This document shows, in pieces, positions 11,548 through 25,288 of a DNA stretch of 64,000 nucleotides; the first letter of the stretch is position 1, and every line of letters begins with the position of its first letter. Origin of the DNA: Chloroherpetonaceae bacterium (GTDB lineage: Bacteria; Bacteroidota; Chlorobiia; Chlorobiales; Chloroherpetonaceae); assembly GCA_028277445.1 (NCBI GenBank), contig JANQGG010000063.1:1-64000 (forward strand), written 5' to 3'. The notes under the pieces are model-generated. The model was not told where the DNA came from. It ran no database searches and was given only the letters and a program-made list of their open reading frames with translations. A program made the position numbers and the translations under genes.

Positions 11548-13965
11548 ATGAAAATATCTGATACAACAATATCCTATAAAAAGATATCCAAATCTTTTAA
11601 TAGCTGTAAAAAACATCCATTTAAAGGCGTTTTGGATTTGAGCGTTCTTATTGATGCGTGGGAAAATTTTATCAACGATTCACCGATCATCAGCGACACG
11701 TTCAAAAAAGAAATTTTTGAAAATATTCAGTTTACGCAAGAACTCAACGGACCAATTGAAGACTTAAGCTTGCTTGAAAAACATCGTGATGTTGTTGATA
11801 TGCTTTTTTCAATAGTCTTCCCTGCCGGTTCAAAGGAATACGAGATATCAGCTGCCATAATACCCTTTTCAACAAATATGGTTTATGAAACCCCAAAATT
11901 TAAAACGCTGATCTCAAAAAACGGTAAAATTGATGCGTCAAATACAAAAGTTGATATTGATTTGGTGGCATTGGAATATGTGAAGATTTTAAGAGCATAT
12001 ACTTTTATTGGGAAGAAATTTTATAATTTGGATGTTAAATTTGATTACCCGTTAATCGTTTCATTCAAAGACCCCGAAACATCAATGGATCTGTATTATA
12101 AAATTGAGTTCAACACTCAGTTTATGAACATTGTATGTAACGGTGAAATCCCTAAACTTAAAGCAGCCGATAAAAAACGGTTGCTATCAAATTTGGCTGA
12201 TCTTAAAACCTGGACGGATATTCTACCCCCTCATTTATTTGAATTTCATGGGTTTGGCATTGTAAAACTCATCGATGTCACCGATCAGGAAGTGATTTCG
12301 GATTTGAAGCGAGATTTGATTGAAAATGAATCCATTTTATCAGAAACTCAGTTCGTGCACATTCAAAATAAACTTCGTGTACTTTTAAGATTGCCAAAAC
12401 TTTACCTTGGCTTAGTCGCATTTCAAAATGATGACGCCATACTCCTGAATTCCGGTTATAATCTTGAAAATAATGTAAATGACGATATAAAATTTCGTTA
12501 TAAACATTCTGATTTTGCCAATACCATCTACGACTGCACCAATATTGAACAGACCGAAATAAGGGTTATTGAAAACATTCGCAACCTTGATCATTTATCG
12601 TTTATTGAAGAAAAACTTCTTGATTTCGGATTACATAGCGCCGTTGTTGCCCCGTTATTTTATCAGGGAGAGTTAATCGGCGGTCTTGAGATTTCCTCAC
12701 CGGAACCCGGCGATCTAAACGAACTGAATTCAATGAAAATCAATGCTGTTTTACCATTGTTTTCAATTGCCGTTCAACAAACCTTAGAAGAGCTTAATCA
12801 TAAAGTACAAGGGATTATTAAAGAAAAATTTACGTTTATCCATCCAACAGTTGAATGGCGATTCCAGGAAGCCGCACTTGAATTGATGGAAAAACAACAA
12901 AAAGATCCAACGGCGGCTATTGATGATATTGTCTTTGAAAACGTTGTCCCGCTTTACAGTGTTTCTGATATCCGAAGCTCTACCCTGAACCGGAATCAAG
13001 CCATTAAAAGTGATCTTATCCATCAATTGAGCCTGGCGAGAAATTGTCTGGAGCATGCCAATACTTTCAAATCTTTGCCATTATTTGAGCAGCTTATTTT
13101 CAGAATTAAGAAAAAAATGGGGAGTCTTTCCAAAGAGCTCCGTTCTGAAGATGAAAACATGATTCTGGATTTCCTAGACCGAGATGTTGAACCGGTTTTT
13201 GATTATATCCAAAATCTGGATCCGTCATTGGCGCATTATGTTACGTCTTATCACAACGAACTTGACCCTAAGTTTGGCATCGTCTACCATCACCGAAAAG
13301 CTTACGACGACAGTGTTCATAAAATCTCCGATGCCATTAGTTGCTATTTGGAATCTCAGGAAATTGTTGCCCAGGAAATGTGCCCGCACTTTTTTGAAAA
13401 GCATAAAACCGATGGCGTTGACTTTAGCTTGTATATCGGGAAGTCCTTGGTATCAAACGGACTTTTCTCACCAATTTGTCTAAAAAATCTACGATTATGG
13501 CAGTTGATCGTCATGTGCGGTATTGTCCAAAAGGTTGAAGAAATTAAGTCTTCATTACCGCTTCCGCTTGAAACGGCTCATTTGATATTGATTCAAAACA
13601 CCCCACTTTCCATTCGATTTAGATCCGATGAGCGTCAATTTGATGTGGATGGCAGCTACAATGTCAGGTACGAAATCATGAAAAAGCGTATTGATAAATC
13701 CGTGGTTAAATCTACAAATGAACGCCTAACACAACCTGGAAAAATCGCATTGATTTACTCTAATCCGAAAGAAATATTAGAGTATAAAGACTTTATTGAG
13801 TACCTGCAATCGCGTGGCTTTTTAGATTCTCAATTGGAAGAATTAGAACTTGAAGATCTGCAAGGCATCCGTGGATTGAAAGCACTTAGAGTTACCGTGA
13901 AAACAACTAAAAAAGCCATAAAATCTCACGACGAACTTGTTCGGGAATTTCCGGTTTTGAATTGA
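11548..13965 (+). CDS. large GAF-domain protein, unknown function
   Basis: The 805-residue soluble protein has no signal or membrane segment. A GAF-like domain lies at about residues 265-415 (QNKLRVLLRLPKLYLGLVAF, then LHSAVVAPLFYQGELIGGLE, then NAVLPLFSIAVQQTL). The first 260 residues and the last 380 residues match no domain I recognise. The C-terminal half is rich in helices and includes CPHFFEKHKTDGVDFSLYIG. Related GAF proteins of about 800 residues occur in Bacteroidota. It is the first gene of a plus-strand series leading to kaiB and kaiC, so it could be an input sensor, but this rests only on position. Confidence 0.65.
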   Translation: MKISDTTISYKKISKSFNSCKKHPFKGVLDLSVLIDAWENFINDSPIISDTFKKEIFENIQFTQELNGPIEDLSLLEKHRDVVDMLFSIVFPAGSKEYEISAAIIPFSTNMVYETPKFKTLISKNGKIDASNTKVDIDLVALEYVKILRAYTFIGKKFYNLDVKFDYPLIVSFKDPETSMDLYYKIEFNTQFMNIVCNGEIPKLKAADKKRLLSNLADLKTWTDILPPHLFEFHGFGIVKLIDVTDQEVISDLKRDLIENESILSETQFVHIQNKLRVLLRLPKLYLGLVAFQNDDAILLNSGYNLENNVNDDIKFRYKHSDFANTIYDCTNIEQTEIRVIENIRNLDHLSFIEEKLLDFGLHSAVVAPLFYQGELIGGLEISSPEPGDLNELNSMKINAVLPLFSIAVQQTLEELNHKVQGIIKEKFTFIHPTVEWRFQEAALELMEKQQKDPTAAIDDIVFENVVPLYSVSDIRSSTLNRNQAIKSDLIHQLSLARNCLEHANTFKSLPLFEQLIFRIKKKMGSLSKELRSEDENMILDFLDRDVEPVFDYIQNLDPSLAHYVTSYHNELDPKFGIVYHHRKAYDDSVHKISDAISCYLESQEIVAQEMCPHFFEKHKTDGVDFSLYIGKSLVSNGLFSPICLKNLRLWQLIVMCGIVQKVEEIKSSLPLPLETAHLILIQNTPLSIRFRSDERQFDVDGSYNVRYEIMKKRIDKSVVKSTNERLTQPGKIALIYSNPKEILEYKDFIEYLQSRGFLDSQLEELELEDLQGIRGLKALRVTVKTTKKAIKSHDELVREFPVLN

Positions 13966-14534: not shown

Positions 14535-15461
14535 ATGATTGAACTGTTTGGCGGAATGGTTGAAGAGAACATAAAAAAAATACAAAGTTTGGAAGAAACA
14601 GTTTCTAACTTAAAAGATTACCAAACCATTTTTGACAGATTACCACTTCCTGCTATAATACTGAATTCGGATCTTGAATTTATTAATTCTAATGCTTCTT
14701 GGAATAGCTTAAGAAATTCACTTAAAAAAAAGACACCAAAAAAAACACCTTCCTTTATAGAGCTTTTTACAGCATATTTTGATCTTAATCCTGAAACCCA
14801 ATCTAAACTTCATAAAGGTTTATCTGGCTTAAGCAACACTAAGCATGCATCATTTTCGCTTGAAATCAAAAGCTCAATAAATAATGTTGAAAAATTCTGG
14901 TTGGTGAATTGTCATGATTTGAGAATTGAGAGCAAAGGTATTGTGGTGTTATTGGTAGATATAACCCCTCAAATATCAAACCATCTAAAAGACTCTAGCA
15001 AAAAACCTGTTAATAAACCTATTGAAGATACAAATCTCAATAACAGAGATGAAGCTAATGTTCAAAAAGCTCATGACCATTTTGAAACTCAAACCCATAT
15101 AACTGCCAAACATTTTGGTTTAGAATCTTTAAGTGAGGGTAATTCGGATTTTTTTCAAGAACTAGTCGCGCGATTTGATGAGCTTGTCAACGAGTCTTTA
15201 CAACTTCAAATGTATAAACAAAATACTAATTTTTCATTGTCCATATCGATGTTAGCAAACGATTTAGGTGGCATTAATGCAGAGCCCCGTGATGTAATTG
15301 ATATTTATTTAAGCGCAATTCGAACGAAAAGCCAAACTACTGGCCCTAAAAAATTCAGCTATTACAACTCTGAAGCTAGGCTGGTAGTATTAGAATTAAT
15401 GGGGCATTTGGTATCGTTCTACAGAAATTATTCGTTTGGACTAGGTCGGAAACTTCATTAA
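14535..15461 (+). CDS. PAS protein with a KaiA-like C-terminal domain
   Basis: The 308-residue soluble protein has three parts. Residues about 28-140 form a PAS domain (YQTIFDRLPLPAIILNSDLE, then WLVNCHDLRI, then VVLLVDITPQ). Residues 150-205 are a polar linker. Residues 206-300 are helical and resemble the C-terminal KaiC-stimulating domain of cyanobacterial KaiA. DVIDIYLSAI (253-262) lines up with the KaiA stretch (K/E)(V/I)(V/I)EIHMEL(M/I). EARLVVLELMGHLVSFYRNY (281-300) lines up with DYRLTLIDVIAHLCEMYRRS. His291 falls on the KaiA histidine (His270 in Thermosynechococcus) reported to be needed for KaiC binding. kaiB begins 22 bases after its stop. The KaiA likeness is my reading from memory of KaiA sequences. 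An unrelated helical bundle is possible. Confidence 0.65.
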   Translation: MIELFGGMVEENIKKIQSLEETVSNLKDYQTIFDRLPLPAIILNSDLEFINSNASWNSLRNSLKKKTPKKTPSFIELFTAYFDLNPETQSKLHKGLSGLSNTKHASFSLEIKSSINNVEKFWLVNCHDLRIESKGIVVLLVDITPQISNHLKDSSKKPVNKPIEDTNLNNRDEANVQKAHDHFETQTHITAKHFGLESLSEGNSDFFQELVARFDELVNESLQLQMYKQNTNFSLSISMLANDLGGINAEPRDVIDIYLSAIRTKSQTTGPKKFSYYNSEARLVVLELMGHLVSFYRNYSFGLGRKLH

Positions 15462-15483: not shown

Positions 15484-15771
15484 ATGTCGGAATTCAGATT
15501 CAAACTCTATATTACCGGGCACACTCCCCGTTCGGATTTAGCGATATATAACCTTAGGCAACTGTGTGATACAAAACTCAAAGGGAACTACAAGTTAGAA
15601 ATTATTGATATACTTGAGAATCCTGAAATGGCCGAACATGAGCGAATTTTAGCAACACCTACGCTGATAAAGTTATCCCCAGCGCCCTATCAGCGAATCA
15701 CTGGGGATTTGTCTAATCCTGATCGCCTAATATCAGGTTTGGATTTGGATAATTACTTACATGAATTTTAA
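15484..15771 (+). CDS. kaiB: circadian-clock-type protein KaiB
   Basis: The 95-residue protein has the KaiB thioredoxin-like layout: FKLYITGHTPRSDLAIYNL, then KLEIIDILENPEMAEHERIL, then ATPTLIKLSPAPYQRITGDL. GDLSNPDRLISGLDL at the end keeps the G-L-D trio around the residues (Gly88 and Asp90 in Thermosynechococcus KaiB) studied in its fold switch. In cyanobacteria KaiB binds phosphorylated KaiC and sequesters KaiA. It follows the KaiA-like gene by 22 bases and precedes kaiC by 99 bases, suggesting one operon. Confidence 0.95.
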   Translation: MSEFRFKLYITGHTPRSDLAIYNLRQLCDTKLKGNYKLEIIDILENPEMAEHERILATPTLIKLSPAPYQRITGDLSNPDRLISGLDLDNYLHEF

Positions 15772-15870
15772 ACCATTTTAATATTAATCCTGGATTTACC
15801 AATGTTTTTTATCCACTAAACATGTGCGAAATATTTAATGCAACATTCTTTTTAACTTTAATAATTAGAT

Positions 15871-17385
15871 ATGTTAATTGAAAAATTACCTACCGGTATA
15901 GATGGATTTGAGCATATTTCAAACGGAGGTCTCCCAAAAGGTCGTACCACACTTTTATCAGGTACTGCAGGGAGCGCAAAAACTGTATTTGCATCACAGT
16001 TTTTAGCTAGTGGCATACAACAATACCAAGAACCTGGTTTGTTTGTAACGTTTGAAGAACTTCCTGATGATATCAGACGAAACATGAATGGCTTTGGTTG
16101 GGATATTAATGCCTGGGAAGCTGATAATCTTTGGTCTTTTGTAGATGCTGCGCCAAGGCCAATGGAAAATGAAGTTATTGCCGGAGATTATGATTTAGGC
16201 GGTCTTTTGGCACGAATTGAATATATCGTTCAGAAAAATAAGATTAAACGAGTATCCTTGGATTCTATTGGTGCAATATTAAATCGATTCCATGATACCC
16301 ATATTTTCCGTCGTGAACTGTTTCGTATTTCGATGGCTTTAAAAACTATGGGTGTTACCGCTTTAATGACTGCTGAACGATCAAATGAATATGGTGAAAT
16401 TGCTCGAAACGGTGTTGAAGAATTTGTGGCAGATAATGTGATCATACTTAGAAATGCTCTTGAGAATGAAAAACGACGCCGCACCATAGAAATACTAAAA
16501 TTCAGAGGGACTTTCCATCAAAAAGGTGAATTTCCTTTTACCATAGATCCAAAAATTGGCATTATTGTTATTCCAATATCTGCCATTGAGCTCGCCCAAC
16601 ACTCCTCAAATACTCGTATTTCTTCAGGCATAAACGAAGTGGATAAAATGTGTGGCGGTGGGTTTTTCCGCGACTCCGTTATACTAGTTTCCGGTCCAAC
16701 CGGCAATGGCAAAACCCTGCTTGCAACGCAGTTTATTTCGGGAGGCGTAAAAAACGATGAAAAATGCCTTCTTTTTGCCTATGAAGAAAGCCGTGAACAG
16801 CTTTTTAGAAATGCTATTGGATGGGGCATTGATTTTGAGAAATATGAATCGGAAGGTCGTTTGAAAGTTATTTGCGAATATCCTGAAGTTACCAGTCTTG
16901 AAGATCACTTAGTTCGTATTAAAAATTCTATTGCTGAATTCAGACCAAATCGGGTTGCCGTCGATAGCCTTTCTGCACTTGAACGTGTTTCAACGATTCG
17001 AGGATTTAGGGAATTTGTCATCAGCCTCACTTCGTTCATAAAACATTATGAAATCGCCGGTCTTTTTACAGCTACAACGCCTACATTGATGGGTGGAACG
17101 TCCGTAACAGAATCTCACATTTCAACCATTACCGACTCAATTATCCTGCTTCGTTATGTGGAAATGTTTGGTGAAATGCACCGTGGTCTAACAGTTTTGA
17201 AAATGCGCGGTTCAACCCATGATAAAGACATCCGTGAATTCACAATTGATAATAACGGCATTCATTTAGGAAAAACGTTTAACAATATTGTTGGTATTCT
17301 TTCAGGAAATCCCCAGCACATTGTTTCAGAAAATGAAGATAGATTAGGTGGAATGTTCAACGACCCCAAAATCCCACCTATTTAA
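15871..17385 (+). CDS. kaiC: clock-type ATPase and autokinase KaiC
   Basis: The 504-residue protein has two tandem RecA-like domains. CI has Walker A GTAGSAKT (residues 31-38) and the catalytic FEE pair. CII has Walker A GPTGNGKT and YEES. In CII, VTESHISTITDS keeps the three phosphorylation residues: Thr413, Ser418 and Thr419 correspond to Thr426, Ser431 and Thr432 of Synechococcus KaiC. The following A-loop region (MRGSTHDKDIREFTIDNNG) and a C-terminal tail are present, the parts KaiA acts on in cyanobacteria. All catalytic features of a cycling KaiC are therefore visible. Whether this host keeps a circadian rhythm cannot be told from sequence. Confidence 0.96.
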   Translation: MLIEKLPTGIDGFEHISNGGLPKGRTTLLSGTAGSAKTVFASQFLASGIQQYQEPGLFVTFEELPDDIRRNMNGFGWDINAWEADNLWSFVDAAPRPMENEVIAGDYDLGGLLARIEYIVQKNKIKRVSLDSIGAILNRFHDTHIFRRELFRISMALKTMGVTALMTAERSNEYGEIARNGVEEFVADNVIILRNALENEKRRRTIEILKFRGTFHQKGEFPFTIDPKIGIIVIPISAIELAQHSSNTRISSGINEVDKMCGGGFFRDSVILVSGPTGNGKTLLATQFISGGVKNDEKCLLFAYEESREQLFRNAIGWGIDFEKYESEGRLKVICEYPEVTSLEDHLVRIKNSIAEFRPNRVAVDSLSALERVSTIRGFREFVISLTSFIKHYEIAGLFTATTPTLMGGTSVTESHISTITDSIILLRYVEMFGEMHRGLTVLKMRGSTHDKDIREFTIDNNGIHLGKTFNNIVGILSGNPQHIVSENEDRLGGMFNDPKIPPI

Positions 17386-17437
17386 ATGCGGAGTTAAATA
17401 ATGAACGATCATTTAAATTTTGAGATCGGTTGCACAT

Positions 17438-20089
17438 ATGAGCACCAAAAAAACAAAATTACAACAACTTGAAAATGAGTTAGCTGAATTAAAGATTAAC
17501 TACAAAAACGTTGCATCTAATTTATCTTTTACCATCAACAATTCGTTGAATGGTATTCTTATCGTTAATACCTCAGGCCTTATTGTTTTAGCAAATCCTA
17601 CTGCGCATAAACTTTTTGAAAAAAATGAGAATCAATTAATCGGCCAGGATTTTGACTTTCCATTCCTTGCTTCAGAAAAAGTTGAGCTTGATATTGTTCA
17701 GAAAAATGGCGCTGTTATCATAGTTGAAATGACGGTAATGGACACGATTTGGAACAATGAGCCGTGTTTTTTAATCACATTGTATGATATTACCGATCGC
17801 ATTCAATCAAAAAAATCCCTAGAAAAACAAAAGTGTCAATATCAACGAATCGTTGAAACAGCTTCCGAAGCGCTATGTGAAATAAAGGAGGATGGCACCA
17901 TTGCTTTTGTTAATGAAAATTTTTGCAAACTGATCCAGACCCCCCAAAAAAAGACCATTGGCAACTCAATCTACAACTTTTTGCATAGGGAGTATCATGG
18001 GTATATCCAAAACCATTTGAGTAGTCCTAACTGCTCCTATCCGTTGCGATTTGATTGCAAAATTCAAACCAAAACCAATCATACCAAGTGGGTCATTGTA
18101 AGTTTATCTTTAATCCGTGATGATAACAAAACCATATCGGGCGCTTTAGTTATGATGACCGACATTACCGATCGAAAGAATTCAGAAGAAGCGTTAAGTT
18201 TGTTGGCTTCAAAATTCAATCATTTTACTGATCACACTTGCCTGGCTTTTGTTGAAATCACTTCTGATTATAAGATCATTTCCTGGAACAATGCAGCTGA
18301 AAAAATATTTGGTTATACTAAAAGCGAAGCCCTTAATCAATCAATTAATCTGATTATACCAGCCGAAGAGAGACCTAATACAAATTTGATCTTCCAGGAG
18401 TTGAAATCCAAATCTGGCGGCAACGAGATTAAGCTTTTCAATCAACGCAAAGATGAGAAGCTGATATATTGTTTATGGATGAATGAGCTGATCAGGAATT
18501 CTAAAGGTGATATCGAAAGCGTTGTTTTACTCATTCACGATATCACCAAGGAACATAAACGCCATGAAGCGATTGAAGAATCTCAAAAAAATCTTTCGGC
18601 AATACTTTCTTCAATCGATGCTGCTGTTTTTACTTTGGATGAAAACATTCAAATTAGTCTATCCAATAAAGCTGCCCAACGATTATTTCAATATTCTGAA
18701 CGAGAGTTCGTAAGGATGCCGTTTCAAAAGCTCCTCTCAAAAAATTACAGCGCTGATTTTATTCAGGGTATTTTAGGTTTTCTAACGTCAAGTGATAACT
18801 TGTTTCGGAACAAAAAAACGCAGGACATTAAAGCGGTACGAAAAAACGGCGAAGAATTTGATACCGAGGTATCCTTAACTAAAATTAAAATTTTTGGCCA
18901 GGAAAAATTAATTGCATTACTCCTCGATATTACCGAACGAAAACAGCATCAACAACAACTTATGCGTTCACAGCGCCTAGAAAGTATTGGGTTGCTGACA
19001 AGTGGTATCGTTCATGAAATGAACGATGTTTTAACCCCAATTATGTTAAGCATTGAATATTTAAAATTTGCCGCTAAGGATCTTGATTTAGCCGATTGCC
19101 TGAACTCACTTGAAACCAGCGCTAAACATGGCCAGGAATTAATTGAACAACTCTTGACCTTTGCACGAGGCAAAGACACAACACACACCCTACTAAACCC
19201 TTACCGATTGCTTTATGATGTTGAATCAATAATACATGAAACGTTTCCGCAATCCATTAAAACCTCTATTGAAATATCCGAAGAACTCTGGTTAATCATT
19301 ACGCATCCCACTGAGTTTCATCAAATACTGATGAACTTGTGCATAAACTCCAAGCATGCCATGGCAAAAGGCGGTATTTTATCGATTAAGGCTGAAAACA
19401 TGGTCATTGACGAAAATTATTGCAAGCAGCATATCGATGCCAAAGTTGGCCCTTATGTTGTTATTCATATCTCTGATACCGGTTCGGGAATACCTAAAGA
19501 TCATTTAAACAAAATATTTGATCCATTTTTTTCAACAAAACCTCAAGGTCAGGGTTCAGGGCTAGGGCTTTCAACGGTTTATTCGCTAATGCAAAACCAT
19601 GGTGGCTTTATGCAGGTTTCTTCAAAAATCAATGAGGGTACGGATGTTTCACTATTTTTTCCGGCTTCAAAACCAAAAGAAAAACCGTTAATAAAACCGA
19701 TTAAAAAAGATCAGTTATACGGTAATGGAGAACTAATTTTAGTTGTTGATGATGAACCATCAATCTTATCTATCACCGAAAACATCCTTAAACGAAATAA
19801 TTACAATGTTGTAACTGCTCAAGAAGGTAGTGAAGCAACTGCAATTTTCGCTCAAAAAAAACGATCCATCGCATGTTGTATCGTTGATATGATGATGCCT
19901 GTAATGGATGGTTATGCAACTGTTCAAGCTTTACAAGCGATGAGTCCGGAAATAAAAGTTTTATTGATTAGCGGATTAATAGATACGTATGATTTGAAAA
20001 GACATTTTGAAAAAAATGTATCGTATTTAAATAAACCCTTTACCGCTCAAATTTTACTCCATTCTCTTCAAAAGCTTTTAACAGCATAG
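17438..20089 (+). CDS. hybrid PAS histidine kinase with receiver domain
   Basis: The 883-residue cytoplasmic protein begins with a short coiled coil (LQQLENELAELKINYKN). Four PAS domains follow, starting near residues 22, 135, 265 and 385. The dimerisation/phosphoacceptor region has IVHEMNDVLTP with His526. The ATPase domain has NLCINSKHAM (N box), DTGSGIP (G1 box) and GQGSGLGLSTVYSLM (G2 box). The C-terminal receiver has VVDDEPSI and VDMMMPVMDGY with acceptor Asp817. No membrane segments are seen. It starts 52 bases after kaiC, so it may read the KaiC state. No KaiB-like SasA sensor domain is visible, so the link is by position only. Confidence 0.93.
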   Translation: MSTKKTKLQQLENELAELKINYKNVASNLSFTINNSLNGILIVNTSGLIVLANPTAHKLFEKNENQLIGQDFDFPFLASEKVELDIVQKNGAVIIVEMTVMDTIWNNEPCFLITLYDITDRIQSKKSLEKQKCQYQRIVETASEALCEIKEDGTIAFVNENFCKLIQTPQKKTIGNSIYNFLHREYHGYIQNHLSSPNCSYPLRFDCKIQTKTNHTKWVIVSLSLIRDDNKTISGALVMMTDITDRKNSEEALSLLASKFNHFTDHTCLAFVEITSDYKIISWNNAAEKIFGYTKSEALNQSINLIIPAEERPNTNLIFQELKSKSGGNEIKLFNQRKDEKLIYCLWMNELIRNSKGDIESVVLLIHDITKEHKRHEAIEESQKNLSAILSSIDAAVFTLDENIQISLSNKAAQRLFQYSEREFVRMPFQKLLSKNYSADFIQGILGFLTSSDNLFRNKKTQDIKAVRKNGEEFDTEVSLTKIKIFGQEKLIALLLDITERKQHQQQLMRSQRLESIGLLTSGIVHEMNDVLTPIMLSIEYLKFAAKDLDLADCLNSLETSAKHGQELIEQLLTFARGKDTTHTLLNPYRLLYDVESIIHETFPQSIKTSIEISEELWLIITHPTEFHQILMNLCINSKHAMAKGGILSIKAENMVIDENYCKQHIDAKVGPYVVIHISDTGSGIPKDHLNKIFDPFFSTKPQGQGSGLGLSTVYSLMQNHGGFMQVSSKINEGTDVSLFFPASKPKEKPLIKPIKKDQLYGNGELILVVDDEPSILSITENILKRNNYNVVTAQEGSEATAIFAQKKRSIACCIVDMMMPVMDGYATVQALQAMSPEIKVLLISGLIDTYDLKRHFEKNVSYLNKPFTAQILLHSLQKLLTA

Positions 20090-20350
20090 TTCATTAGTTA
20101 AAGATTTCTTTGATCCGCATAACATTTATCAATTTTTAAGCAAACCGTTTATCGAACCATTAGTCTGGAAAAATAACTTAAGGTCAACGAAAATACATTT
20201 GTAAGTTATCCAGGAAAATTATCAGAAACACTAATTTTTTATGCCGAAGGATTGAAAGCGATAACATAAAGCTTCAAATGTATTGAAGTATTCTTTTGAG
20301 TTTGAAATAGATTTTTGAAATTATGTTGTTAAAAAACCCATATCATTAAA

Positions 20351-23300
20351 ATGGCACAACGTATCGCCGATTTAAAAAAAGAAATTGCTGAATTACGTGC
20401 GCAACTGGAAGTAGAAAAAACAAATTATGAACACATTTGCCAAAATAGCGGGGATGGAATTTTAGTTACAAATTATGAAGGACAAATACTTTACGCCAAC
20501 CCTTCTGCTTGTGAGTTATTTGAAAAACCAAAAGAGGTTTTAATCGGTAGCGACTTTGGACAACCCATTATTGAAGAACAAAAAACAGAGCTTACCATTG
20601 TTTCATCGAGCTATAAAGTCGCTGAAATGAAAGTTGCCCAATCAACATGGGAATCAGATAAAGCCTTTATTATTACACTTCGAGATATCACACAATTAAA
20701 GTTGGAACAACAGTCTTTGATTGAAGAACGCAACTTCGCCAATCATCTGTTTCATTCTGCCCCCACAATGGTTGTGGTTTTGGATCAAAACGGGTTCCCG
20801 ATTCAAATGAACCGATATGCCAAACTCATCACCGGTTTCAAACCCGAAGATTTCACAGAAAAAAATTGGTTTTATACTGTTGTTTCCGATTCGGATCAAA
20901 ACAATGCCATTGAACATTTTAATGCATTACTAAACCACAAGAACAGCCACGAATGCATTCTTCCTTTAAGAACAAAAGATAACCATGAAGTTTTAGTTCA
21001 TTGGAGCTGTTCTCGCATTTTTAAAAACGATCAGCATCTTTTTGGCATATTAATTATCGGATACGACATAACCCAATCCATGAAAGAACATGATCAGCTT
21101 CGCTCTTCGGAAGAAAAGCTAAGAAATATTTTCGATCACTGTCCCCTTGGCATTTTCCATGTAGACTACAACGGAAGGTTTATGTATTTAAATGCAAAAT
21201 TTGCCGATCAATTGGGTTTTGATTCGACTGATGACGTGTTTGAATACATGAATAATAATGCGCTATCGGTGTTTGAATACCCTGAGTCCCCAAAGAAAAT
21301 ATTGGAGTTTACCCTTCAAAATAATTCAACCGCTACATTCAGACAGCGATTACTTAAGAAAAACGGTGATAGCTGGTTAAGTAAACTAACCATTCGGCCC
21401 ATTAAAACTCCCGAAGGTCAACTCAGCCACTTTGAAGGCTTTGTGGAAGATATCTCTCGCCGCACTAAAATAGAGAACGATTTAATCCGAAGCAATAAAC
21501 GTTACCAACGCATGGCTTCAAATATAAATGCAATGATCTATCAGGTTGAGCTATACCCAGATAAATCGTATCGTTTTTTATATGTTAGCCCAAAAATTAA
21601 AGAGATCTATGAAATTTCAGTTGAAACGCTTTATCAAAATCCTACAATTATAAAAAGCTTACATTCGGAAGCAGCTTGTATTGAGTTTACTGAAAAAATT
21701 TTTAAAGGTATAAATACAAACAAGCCTATAGAATGGGAGGGATGGTTAAAAACAAAATCCGGCAAAAAAAAGTGGCTATATGTCTCTAACACGTTTGAAA
21801 AAAAATCTGATAACATAACAATTATTGATGGGCTTGTCATAGACATGTCCGATCGCAAATTAGCTGAAGAGAACTTAAACAAGAATCAGTTGATTTTAGC
21901 AAAATCGCAATCGGTTGCTCAATTGGGAAGTTGGGAGTGGAATGTTAAGACTAATGAAGTGCTTTGGTCAGATCAAATGTATACTCTTTACGATGTATCC
22001 AAATCCATAAAACCCTCCAAGGAACTGTTTATTACACTCATTCATCCAGACGATGTGCCTAAAGTGATGGCACATCACAAAGAAATGTTTAAAAATAGCT
22101 CTAAAGACAACTCGATCATCTATAGAATTGTTAAAAAAAACGGGCAAACGCGTTATATCAAATCCATATATGATGTTAAAAAGAATGCCAATAATGATGT
22201 GTTATCCATTTTTGGCACTGATCAGGATGTCACTCATGTTATAATTGCACAAAATGCGCTTGAAGAATCAACAACAAAGTACAAACGCTTGGCTGAAAAT
22301 GTACCTGGAATGGTTTACCAGTACCAATATTATCATAGTTTTGAAGCCTTCGACTACATTAGCCCGAATTGTCAAAATATTTTAGAAATTGATGCTGAAA
22401 CGCTTACTGAGAATCCTCAAAAATTTCGATCCCTATTCCACAAAGATGATATCCCCTCTTTGCAACAGTCTCTAGATAAAAGTATTCGCAAATTATCTCG
22501 CTGGAACTGGGAAGGACGTATTGTTACACCTTCCGGTAAAGTCAAATGGGTACACTGCCTTTCCAAACCCATATTATTAGAAACCGGCGTCATTATATGG
22601 GAAGGTATCGTTTTGGATGTTACCGATAGAAAAACTCAGGAAGAAAAAATCACTCTGCTTTCTACGGCTGTTGAACAAAGCGCCAACTGTGTTGTTATTA
22701 CTGATGCTAACGGAAATATTCAATACACAAATCCAAAATTTAAAGTTATTACAGGATACGAATCCGAAGAAGTTTTGGGTCAAAATCCTCGTTTATTAAA
22801 ATCGGGATACCACCCGAATAGTTTTTATGACGAGCTTTGGGAAACCATTTCCAATGGAAACGTTTGGAAAGGTGAACTTAAAAACAAAAATAAGAAAGGT
22901 CATCATTACTGGGAAACAGCAACAATTACGCCTATAAAAGATTCTGAAGGAAAAATCATCAATTATATTGCTATCAAAGAAAATATTACCAAACAAAAAC
23001 AAGCTGAACTTGAACTTAAAGAAAATGAAAAACTATTAAACACAATATACAGTACACTCCACACCGGTATTAGTTTGATTACACCTGATGGTCAAATACT
23101 ACAAACAAATCGGGCTTTTTGCACCATTTTAGGATATGATGAATTTGAATTAGACCAAAAAAATGTGTTGGACCTGGTACCTAAAAAATATCATTTGTCC
23201 CTAAATCGATTGCTTAAAAAAGCAATCATTGGCAAAGTTACCCCATCGATTGAAATCAATATGTCCAAGAAAAACAGGCGACGAATTACCCTCCAAATTC

Positions 23301-25288
23301 GTTCAAGTCTGATTGTACAAGCCAATGGCAACAGAACCATTTTAGCCTCCATTAACGATATAACCGATCAAAAAAAAGCTGAACAAGCTTTAAAACAAAG
23401 CGTCAATAATTATAAACGAATTGTTGAAACTGCATCGGAAGGCTTATGGACAGAAGATGAAAACGGTTTGATCATTTTTGCTAACCACCGAATGTGTGAA
23501 CTTTTTGATTTAAGCCTGGATGATATTCTGGGTAAATCAATCGATGAATTTTTGGATCCAACCGAGAATCTTGATTTACAAGAGGTCCATAAAGGCACGA
23601 AAAAAGGCAAAAAATTGTCTCGTGATGTTAAGTTTTTAAAACACAATAACACCATTCTTTGGGGGATTATTAACCTAAGCCCAATTTATAATGAAAAAAA
23701 CAAATATATCGGCACGCTTGGTATGCTTACTGATATTACGGAGCGTAAATATGCTGAAACCGAATTAAGACACTCCGAAGAAAGTTTATCGGCTATTTTT
23801 GAATCGTTGGATGCCGGCGTTGTTATCATTAATTATTCAGGTATTATTACCAAGGCAAATACGACCATTAAAACGATCTATCAATATTCCCAGGATGAAC
23901 TGATCGGAAAACACTTTGAAATATTACTACCGGAATCTGCTCGCCAAGAGCATCTTGAATTCTTAAACGAGTTTGTTAAATCGCCAAATACCCATTATAA
24001 AGTATCAGATCAAGACGAGGTTCTTGGCCTGCGAAAAGATGGTAGTCTCTTCCCTGTTGATATATCCATTTCGAAAATTTATGTTGGCGGCGAAAAGAAT
24101 TTGGCGCTAATGGTTTCAGATATCACTGAACGGAAACAGATTCAATCCCAGCTTTTACGATCACAACGTATGGAAAGCATTGGATTACTTGCCAGTGGTA
24201 TTGCGCATGATATGAATAACATTATTACTCCGATTATGATGAGCACGGAGCTTATGACGGATTACGTTTCCAATAGTAAGGGTTTAAAGCGTCTTGAAGT
24301 TATTAAACATAGTTCAGATCGGGCCAAACAGCTCATTCAACAATTACTCTTGTTTGCAAAAGGTGGGTACGACAAAAAAATACCTGTTAATCTCCGTCGT
24401 GTTATTTTTGAAATCATCTCCTTTATATCGGAAACCTTTTCAAAATCGATTGAAATTGTTCATAACATTGATTCTCCCCTGCCTTATGTTTTGGCAGATC
24501 CCACACAATTGCATCAGATCATCTTAAATCTCTGTGTTAATGCCCAAGATGCCATGCCTCAGGGTGGTAAATTGACAATTATTGCCACAAAAACGGAAAT
24601 AGATCGGGAAATGGCTTCAAAAAATATCGATGCAAAGCCCGGAACTTATGCCTTGGTTCAGATCCAAGACACCGGTATTGGCATTTCTAAAAAGCATTTA
24701 AATTCAATTTTTGAGCCATTCTTTACAACCAAAGAACACGGAAAAGGAACTGGTCTTGGGCTTTCAATGGTCTATAACATTACTCAAAACCATAGCGGCT
24801 TTATTGATGTCAATAGCCGAGAAAATGAGGGCACAACCTTTAATCTTTTCCTACCGGTAATTCTTAGTGAAACGCAAGCTGAAGAGGTTGTAAATCCTAA
24901 CAAACTCATTAAAGGCAATGGCCGTGTAATTTTAGTGGTTGATGATGAAATTGATATTCGCGAAGTTACCTCTCAAATCTTAGCCGGCTACGACTATATC
25001 CCGATTTGTGCCAAAGATGGCGAGCAAGCCATCCAGCTTTATCGTGAGCATCAAAATATTATTGACGGCGTTATTATTGATTTGATGATGCCGGTTATGG
25101 ATGGTTTTACAGCGATTTCAGAATTAAAAAAATACAATGCGAATTTAAAAATTTTGGCGGTAAGCGGTTTGATAGATCACAAAACATTTTCTGAAAAATC
25201 AAATGCAAACATTCACGGTCTTATCAACAAACCTTACTCTACTGAAACACTTTTAACGAAATTGGGTGAAATGTTTTCGGAAAACTGA
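20351..25288 (+). CDS. giant hybrid histidine kinase with ten PAS domains
   Basis: The 1645-residue cytoplasmic protein has an N-terminal coiled coil (LKKEIAELRAQLEVEKTNYE) like its upstream neighbour. Ten PAS or PAS/PAC repeats follow, each marked by a (D/E)IT(E/D)RK- or DMSDRK-type PAC end. The acceptor helix has IAHDMNNIITP with His1286. The ATPase domain has NLCVNAQDAM and GKGTGLGLSMVYNIT. The receiver has VVDDEIDIREV and IIDLMMPVMDGF with Asp1577. The shared head, kinase core and receiver show that it and the preceding kinase are paralogues. The gap of 261 bases to that kinase gives it room for its own promoter. The ligand of no PAS domain can be named. Confidence 0.93.
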   Translation: MAQRIADLKKEIAELRAQLEVEKTNYEHICQNSGDGILVTNYEGQILYANPSACELFEKPKEVLIGSDFGQPIIEEQKTELTIVSSSYKVAEMKVAQSTWESDKAFIITLRDITQLKLEQQSLIEERNFANHLFHSAPTMVVVLDQNGFPIQMNRYAKLITGFKPEDFTEKNWFYTVVSDSDQNNAIEHFNALLNHKNSHECILPLRTKDNHEVLVHWSCSRIFKNDQHLFGILIIGYDITQSMKEHDQLRSSEEKLRNIFDHCPLGIFHVDYNGRFMYLNAKFADQLGFDSTDDVFEYMNNNALSVFEYPESPKKILEFTLQNNSTATFRQRLLKKNGDSWLSKLTIRPIKTPEGQLSHFEGFVEDISRRTKIENDLIRSNKRYQRMASNINAMIYQVELYPDKSYRFLYVSPKIKEIYEISVETLYQNPTIIKSLHSEAACIEFTEKIFKGINTNKPIEWEGWLKTKSGKKKWLYVSNTFEKKSDNITIIDGLVIDMSDRKLAEENLNKNQLILAKSQSVAQLGSWEWNVKTNEVLWSDQMYTLYDVSKSIKPSKELFITLIHPDDVPKVMAHHKEMFKNSSKDNSIIYRIVKKNGQTRYIKSIYDVKKNANNDVLSIFGTDQDVTHVIIAQNALEESTTKYKRLAENVPGMVYQYQYYHSFEAFDYISPNCQNILEIDAETLTENPQKFRSLFHKDDIPSLQQSLDKSIRKLSRWNWEGRIVTPSGKVKWVHCLSKPILLETGVIIWEGIVLDVTDRKTQEEKITLLSTAVEQSANCVVITDANGNIQYTNPKFKVITGYESEEVLGQNPRLLKSGYHPNSFYDELWETISNGNVWKGELKNKNKKGHHYWETATITPIKDSEGKIINYIAIKENITKQKQAELELKENEKLLNTIYSTLHTGISLITPDGQILQTNRAFCTILGYDEFELDQKNVLDLVPKKYHLSLNRLLKKAIIGKVTPSIEINMSKKNRRRITLQIRSSLIVQANGNRTILASINDITDQKKAEQALKQSVNNYKRIVETASEGLWTEDENGLIIFANHRMCELFDLSLDDILGKSIDEFLDPTENLDLQEVHKGTKKGKKLSRDVKFLKHNNTILWGIINLSPIYNEKNKYIGTLGMLTDITERKYAETELRHSEESLSAIFESLDAGVVIINYSGIITKANTTIKTIYQYSQDELIGKHFEILLPESARQEHLEFLNEFVKSPNTHYKVSDQDEVLGLRKDGSLFPVDISISKIYVGGEKNLALMVSDITERKQIQSQLLRSQRMESIGLLASGIAHDMNNIITPIMMSTELMTDYVSNSKGLKRLEVIKHSSDRAKQLIQQLLLFAKGGYDKKIPVNLRRVIFEIISFISETFSKSIEIVHNIDSPLPYVLADPTQLHQIILNLCVNAQDAMPQGGKLTIIATKTEIDREMASKNIDAKPGTYALVQIQDTGIGISKKHLNSIFEPFFTTKEHGKGTGLGLSMVYNITQNHSGFIDVNSRENEGTTFNLFLPVILSETQAEEVVNPNKLIKGNGRVILVVDDEIDIREVTSQILAGYDYIPICAKDGEQAIQLYREHQNIIDGVIIDLMMPVMDGFTAISELKKYNANLKILAVSGLIDHKTFSEKSNANIHGLINKPYSTETLLTKLGEMFSEN

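Follow-up and report, generated by a model that had tools for sequence, protein, structure and literature searches.

Koebler et al. (2024, PMC11372060) describe a KaiA3-KaiB3-KaiC3 system in Synechocystis sp. PCC 6803, in which KaiA3 stimulates its cognate KaiC3 and the two proteins, combined with KaiB3, give a damped rhythm of ~24 h in vitro; the rhythm has a low amplitude and is temperature compensated to an extent similar to that of KaiABC. Systems of this type are already described from cyanobacteria and from a small number of further bacteria, and the same paper lists Chloroherpeton among the KaiA3-bearing genera. The KaiC3 autokinase had been reported to be unresponsive to Synechococcus KaiA (PMC5520375). 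The Rhodobacter KaiBC hourglass (PDB 8dba, 8fwi) shares the KaiB-KaiC core but is built on a KaiC2, which has a long C-terminal extension and works without KaiA. The KaiA of the Synechococcus elongatus KaiABC system carries an N-terminal pseudoreceiver. KaiA was for long regarded as restricted to cyanobacteria.

The locus described here lies within a 64,000-nucleotide stretch of a Chloroherpetonaceae bacterium contig (JANQGG010000063.1, positions 1 to 64,000), hereafter the window, and has three genes on the plus strand in the same order as in S. elongatus: a 308-aa open reading frame (14535-15461), kaiB (15484-15771; 95 aa) and kaiC (15871-17385; 504 aa). The first two are separated by 22 bases, and kaiB and kaiC by 99. 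The kaiB and kaiC genes are genuine, as the earlier note had stated: KaiB matches PF07689 (E 5.5e-27, Pfam) and aligns with other KaiB proteins, and KaiC has two stretches that match PF06745 (E 8.5e-117, Pfam) and passes the NCBIfam cut-offs for both TIGR02655 and PRK09302. They are the single strong KaiB and the single double-domain KaiC of the 3.4 Mb genome, and at the KaiB cut-off this genome yields no further protein with a KaiB domain, such as SasA. As in Synechocystis sp. PCC 6803 the KaiA-type gene lies directly before kaiB; unlike in that strain kaiC is inside the operon rather than apart from it, and no canonical KaiA (PF07688) is detected over the cut-off anywhere in the window's genome. 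An FMO protein is encoded in this genome and in all ten of the relatives tested (four families, one order), which places it among the green sulfur bacteria. The only genome of the same family among the relatives compared is G001, presumably Chloroherpeton thalassium.

The product of the first gene had been described as KaiA-like. Single-sequence searches with the 308-aa protein (Pfam, NCBIfam and PDB) do not reach KaiA, and a weak match to PAS is all that they return. A full-length family profile returns receivers from the PDB, since most family members carry one, a full-length fold model matches PAS proteins, and the full-length profile, when iterated, strayed to PAS kinases and was dropped. 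Because the full-length searches led to receivers and PAS domains, the C-terminal domain (approximately residues 188-303; 15096-15443) was tested apart, with a profile built only from the window protein and its relatives. The best eight PDB matches to this profile are all KaiA (best E 2e-4), and hhalign against 30 canonical KaiA C-terminal domains gives E 2e-5, a probability of 76% and a score of 34, with scores of at most 18 for 30 column shuffles and a reversed alignment; the window domain falls short of KaiA when compared singly and not as part of its family (hhalign probability 2%). In an AlphaFold2 model of the domain the bundle has pLDDT values mostly of 85-98, and the best seven PDB matches are again all KaiA, with Foldseek probabilities of 0.99-1.00 and weak E-values (0.05-0.13). 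In six cyanobacteria with a KaiC3 the C-domain profile also detects a single gene per genome (E 1e-41 to 1e-47), and two cyanobacteria that have canonical KaiA but lack KaiC3 give no match; the six genes code for a receiver-like N-terminus and each lies directly before a kaiB, the arrangement described for kaiA3. The KaiA-first results of the profile, fold and hhalign comparisons, taken with the cyanobacterial KaiA3 matches, therefore identify the window protein as a genuine KaiA relative of the KaiA3 type. Its C-terminal domain and its synteny link it to KaiA3, and it is a PAS-type variant that does not have the cyanobacterial architecture.

The N-terminal part of the protein has a PAS fold (approximately residues 33-144; 14631-14966), joined by a helical linker to the KaiA-type (KaiC-binding) four-helix domain, and it replaces the NarL-type receiver described for cyanobacterial KaiA3, as it does the pseudoreceiver of S. 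elongatus KaiA. The Pfam match to PAS_4 (E 0.041) is below the cut-off, and the AlphaFold2 model matches PAS structures in the PDB with probabilities up to 1.00. The N-terminus of the G001 ortholog is likewise PAS-like, as assigned by eye and alignment only. Among 33 members of the KaiA3 family, 19 carry a Response_reg match and 12 a PAS_9 match, and PAS-bearing members occur in Caldilineaceae, Desulfovibrionaceae, Accumulibacter and others; with a receiver in some members and PAS in others, the sensor end of KaiA3 appears to be interchangeable. The main text of PMC11372060 nowhere uses the word 'PAS'. We would regard this apparent exchange of the sensor end as the new part, with the reservation that Chloroherpeton itself is already listed there as KaiA3-bearing.

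By alignment and phylogeny the window KaiC falls in the KaiC3 group. It is 64-66% identical (mean 65%) to six cyanobacterial KaiC3 proteins, 51-54% (mean 52%) to KaiC1, and 32-36% (mean 35%) to KaiC2, where KaiC1 and KaiC3 are labels given by context (beside canonical KaiA, and occurrence in genomes with KaiA3, respectively) and KaiC2 is recognized by its long tail. The window and G001 proteins are on the KaiC3 side of branches with SH-aLRT support of 99 in a quick tree and 98/96 in a careful one, and the AU test does not reject a single clade of the window protein with KaiC1 at 0.05 (p 0.10). The canonical KaiC1 traits missing from the window protein are the CI Walker A sequence GxxxxGKT and the latch residues E487 and T495. 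The KaiC tail has 20 residues after the A-loop, compared with a median of 22 in KaiC1 and 70-89 in the KaiC2 proteins sampled, which also have two serines. The earlier note had taken grouping with a KaiC family that lacks a KaiA response as evidence against its reading; KaiC3 is such a family in the old sense of the term (PMC5520375), and the objection is lifted by the stimulation of KaiC3 by KaiA3 (PMC11372060).

Residues were compared with S. elongatus and with a KaiC3-group set of 47 non-cyanobacterial sequences and the six cyanobacterial KaiC3. The earlier note had proposed that KaiB and KaiC keep every residue known to matter for a cycling oscillator, and much of its inventory is borne out. 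The CII domain is intact, with Walker A GPTGNGKT (residues 275-282; 16693-16716), the catalytic pair Glu305-Glu306 (16783-16788), D365 and R438, and alignment together with the codons confirms the phosphosites Thr413, Ser418 and Thr419 (17107-17127) as the equivalents of T426, S431 and T432. The CI domain keeps K37, T38, the catalytic pair Glu62-Glu63 (16054-16059) and D131, and KaiB keeps the fold-switch GLD as G85-L86-D87 (15736-15744; the equivalents of G88 and D90) but has Arg54 at the position of K57. The inventory does not hold in full, as only one of the two Walker A loops is of the usual form: that of CI reads GTAGSAKT (residues 31-38; 15961-15984), with Ala36 in place of the Gly before the lysine. 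The A-loop equivalent (residues 475-484, GILSGNPQHI; 17293-17322) and the KaiC3-type C-terminal tail (residues 485-504; 17323-17382) are present and close to normal in length, but the positions of E487, R488 and T495 are taken by V474, G475 and Q482. In Synechococcus KaiC, E487 and T495 keep the A-loop buried and make the protein dependent on KaiA; E487A or T495A causes hyperphosphorylation without KaiA (PMC8538168), and these two positions thus count among the residues known to matter; with the change in CI they contradict the claim that all are kept.

The Gly before the CI Walker A lysine is invariant in 23 KaiC1 and seven KaiC2 proteins, and its replacement by Ala or Ser is a widespread KaiC3 trait, seen in 34 of the 47 other non-cyanobacterial sequences and in all six cyanobacterial KaiC3. 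Ala36 could weaken ATP hydrolysis by CI, though the change is common to most of the KaiC3 group; changes in the A-loop latch are also common within it. The contrast that the earlier note drew with other non-cyanobacterial KaiC proteins, many of which it held to have lost the tail or the sites, fails within the protein's own group, where all 47 sequences keep T426, S431, T432 and both CII glutamates. Retention of these residues therefore does not single out the window KaiC, and judged from the alignment that of the phosphosites is a family trait and no evidence for a special oscillator.

At the level of sequence and fold, the operon thus encodes a KaiC3 with intact CII autokinase sites, a KaiB with its fold-switch residues, and a KaiA3 in which a PAS domain precedes the KaiA-type four-helix domain. 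We consider it likely that this kaiA3-kaiB3-kaiC3 operon runs a KaiC3 cycle tuned by KaiA3, most probably as a damped oscillation or a timer driven by light and dark, with PAS as its input. By analogy with the Synechocystis proteins, a dimer of the KaiA3 C-terminal domain would bind the KaiC3 tail and raise phosphorylation at Ser418 and Thr419, and fold-switched KaiB would bind the CI ring and favor dephosphorylation, possibly by sequestering KaiA3. With the A-loop latch lost, KaiC3 is probably an appreciably active kinase even in the absence of KaiA, such that KaiA3 would tune it rather than switch it on, and the PAS domain may act as the input sensor of the timer. The suggestion in the earlier note of a working three-part timer rather than an hourglass is upheld in its three-part composition; the step from conserved residues to a working timer is not supported, as the conservation of the sites is common to the whole KaiC3 group and says nothing specific about sustained cycling here.

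An hourglass is the strongest competing explanation, and we give it somewhat less than an even chance. In such a system KaiB and KaiC3 would follow the change in ATP/ADP or redox state at light-dark transitions with a daily reset, and KaiA3 would be mainly a PAS input switch, with no cycling of its own. The loss of latch residues E487 and T495 predicts phosphorylation independent of KaiA, as has been argued for KaiC3 (PMC5520375), and the damping and low amplitude of the Synechocystis oscillation (PMC11372060) are also in keeping with an hourglass. Retention of a KaiA-type protein in the operon across many phyla argues against an hourglass, as does the stimulation of Synechocystis KaiC3 by its KaiA3; moreover, the KaiC2 of the Rhodobacter model system has its long C-terminal extension (70-89 residues in the KaiC2 proteins sampled, against 20 here), which the window KaiC lacks.

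For some kai operons of other bacteria, roles in stress or energy-state signaling have been suggested. A module of this kind, keeping no time and feeding the multi-PAS histidine kinase encoded downstream (17441-20089), seems unlikely here: the kinase gene is co-oriented with kaiC and begins ~55 bases beyond its end, and in a rough motif scan several related loci have kinases or GGDEF proteins behind kaiC, but the downstream kinase does not adjoin kaiC in G001, the relative from the same family. A self-sustained, high-amplitude circadian clock equivalent to that of Synechococcus, as the earlier note suggested, is highly improbable, for although the three components and all of the phosphosites are present, KaiC is KaiC3-like (only ~52% identical to the KaiC1 group) and keeps neither the A-loop latch nor the canonical KaiA-binding tail sequence, no SasA-like second KaiB-domain protein over the KaiB cut-off is encoded in the genome, and the characterized relative is damped.

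Beyond the KaiA3-tuned cycle that we prefer, we regard as doubtful the idea that an anoxygenic phototroph here possesses a three-protein Kai oscillator in which a fusion of PAS to the KaiA C-terminal domain feeds redox, oxygen or light into the KaiC cycle, and which free-runs without the cyanobacterial input and output parts. If this were true, KaiA3 in general would be a module, spread over many phyla, whose sensor (receiver or PAS) can be exchanged. The swap of PAS for receiver would illustrate how one oscillator core is connected to different inputs. With a KaiA3-type gene beside kaiBC in loci from many phyla, many 'KaiBC-only' bacteria may in fact be equipped with the full set of three, and whether circadian clocks exist outside the cyanobacteria becomes a question that purified proteins can address directly.

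In most of the 47 related kaiC loci, which come from many phyla, a KaiA3-like homologue lies directly before kaiB and the order A-B-C is repeated; loci L056 and L145 have the gene in this position too. Gemmatimonadota are the main exception, with kaiB-kaiC3 and no recognizable KaiA3 upstream (L024, L025, L036, L039-L044 and L052), possibly through natural loss. Two further loci have other arrangements. On contig JAHPZH010000004.1 (L023, 4598-9360), which is attributed to the Asgard archaea (a Candidatus Helarchaeota MAG), a KaiA3-like gene is followed by two kaiB-kaiC pairs, which possibly reflects transfer or a binning error, and a Quisquiliibacterium contig (L034, 3739-8870) has two KaiA3-like genes, each with a kaiB after it.

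Within the 61 Chlorobiales genomes searched, this KaiC3 together with KaiA3 is present only in the window's genome and in G001, where the operon is kept with 81% identity in KaiC, 64% in KaiB and only 31% in KaiA3 over its full length; between the two, synonymous sites are saturated and non-synonymous change in KaiC is low. Six further Chlorobiales genomes encode a KaiC that is ~35% identical and presumably a KaiC2. G001 carries one too (L064, G001:C1:88437-89867; ~34% identical), which ends in a long C-terminal extension and is paired with a kaiB of its own; no such KaiB-KaiC2-like pair is present in the window's genome. Behind kaiC the window encodes two multi-PAS hybrid histidine kinases in succession (889 and 1645 aa; 17420-25288), which do not adjoin kaiC in G001; the downstream kinase was considered as a conserved partner and rejected for want of synteny in G001. 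Upstream of the operon is a gene for an 805-aa GAF-domain protein (11548-13965), which G001 also has upstream and which is 45-50% identical in three other Chlorobiales genomes; it was set aside as a Kai component because it also occurs in two Chlorobiales genomes where no KaiC was found.
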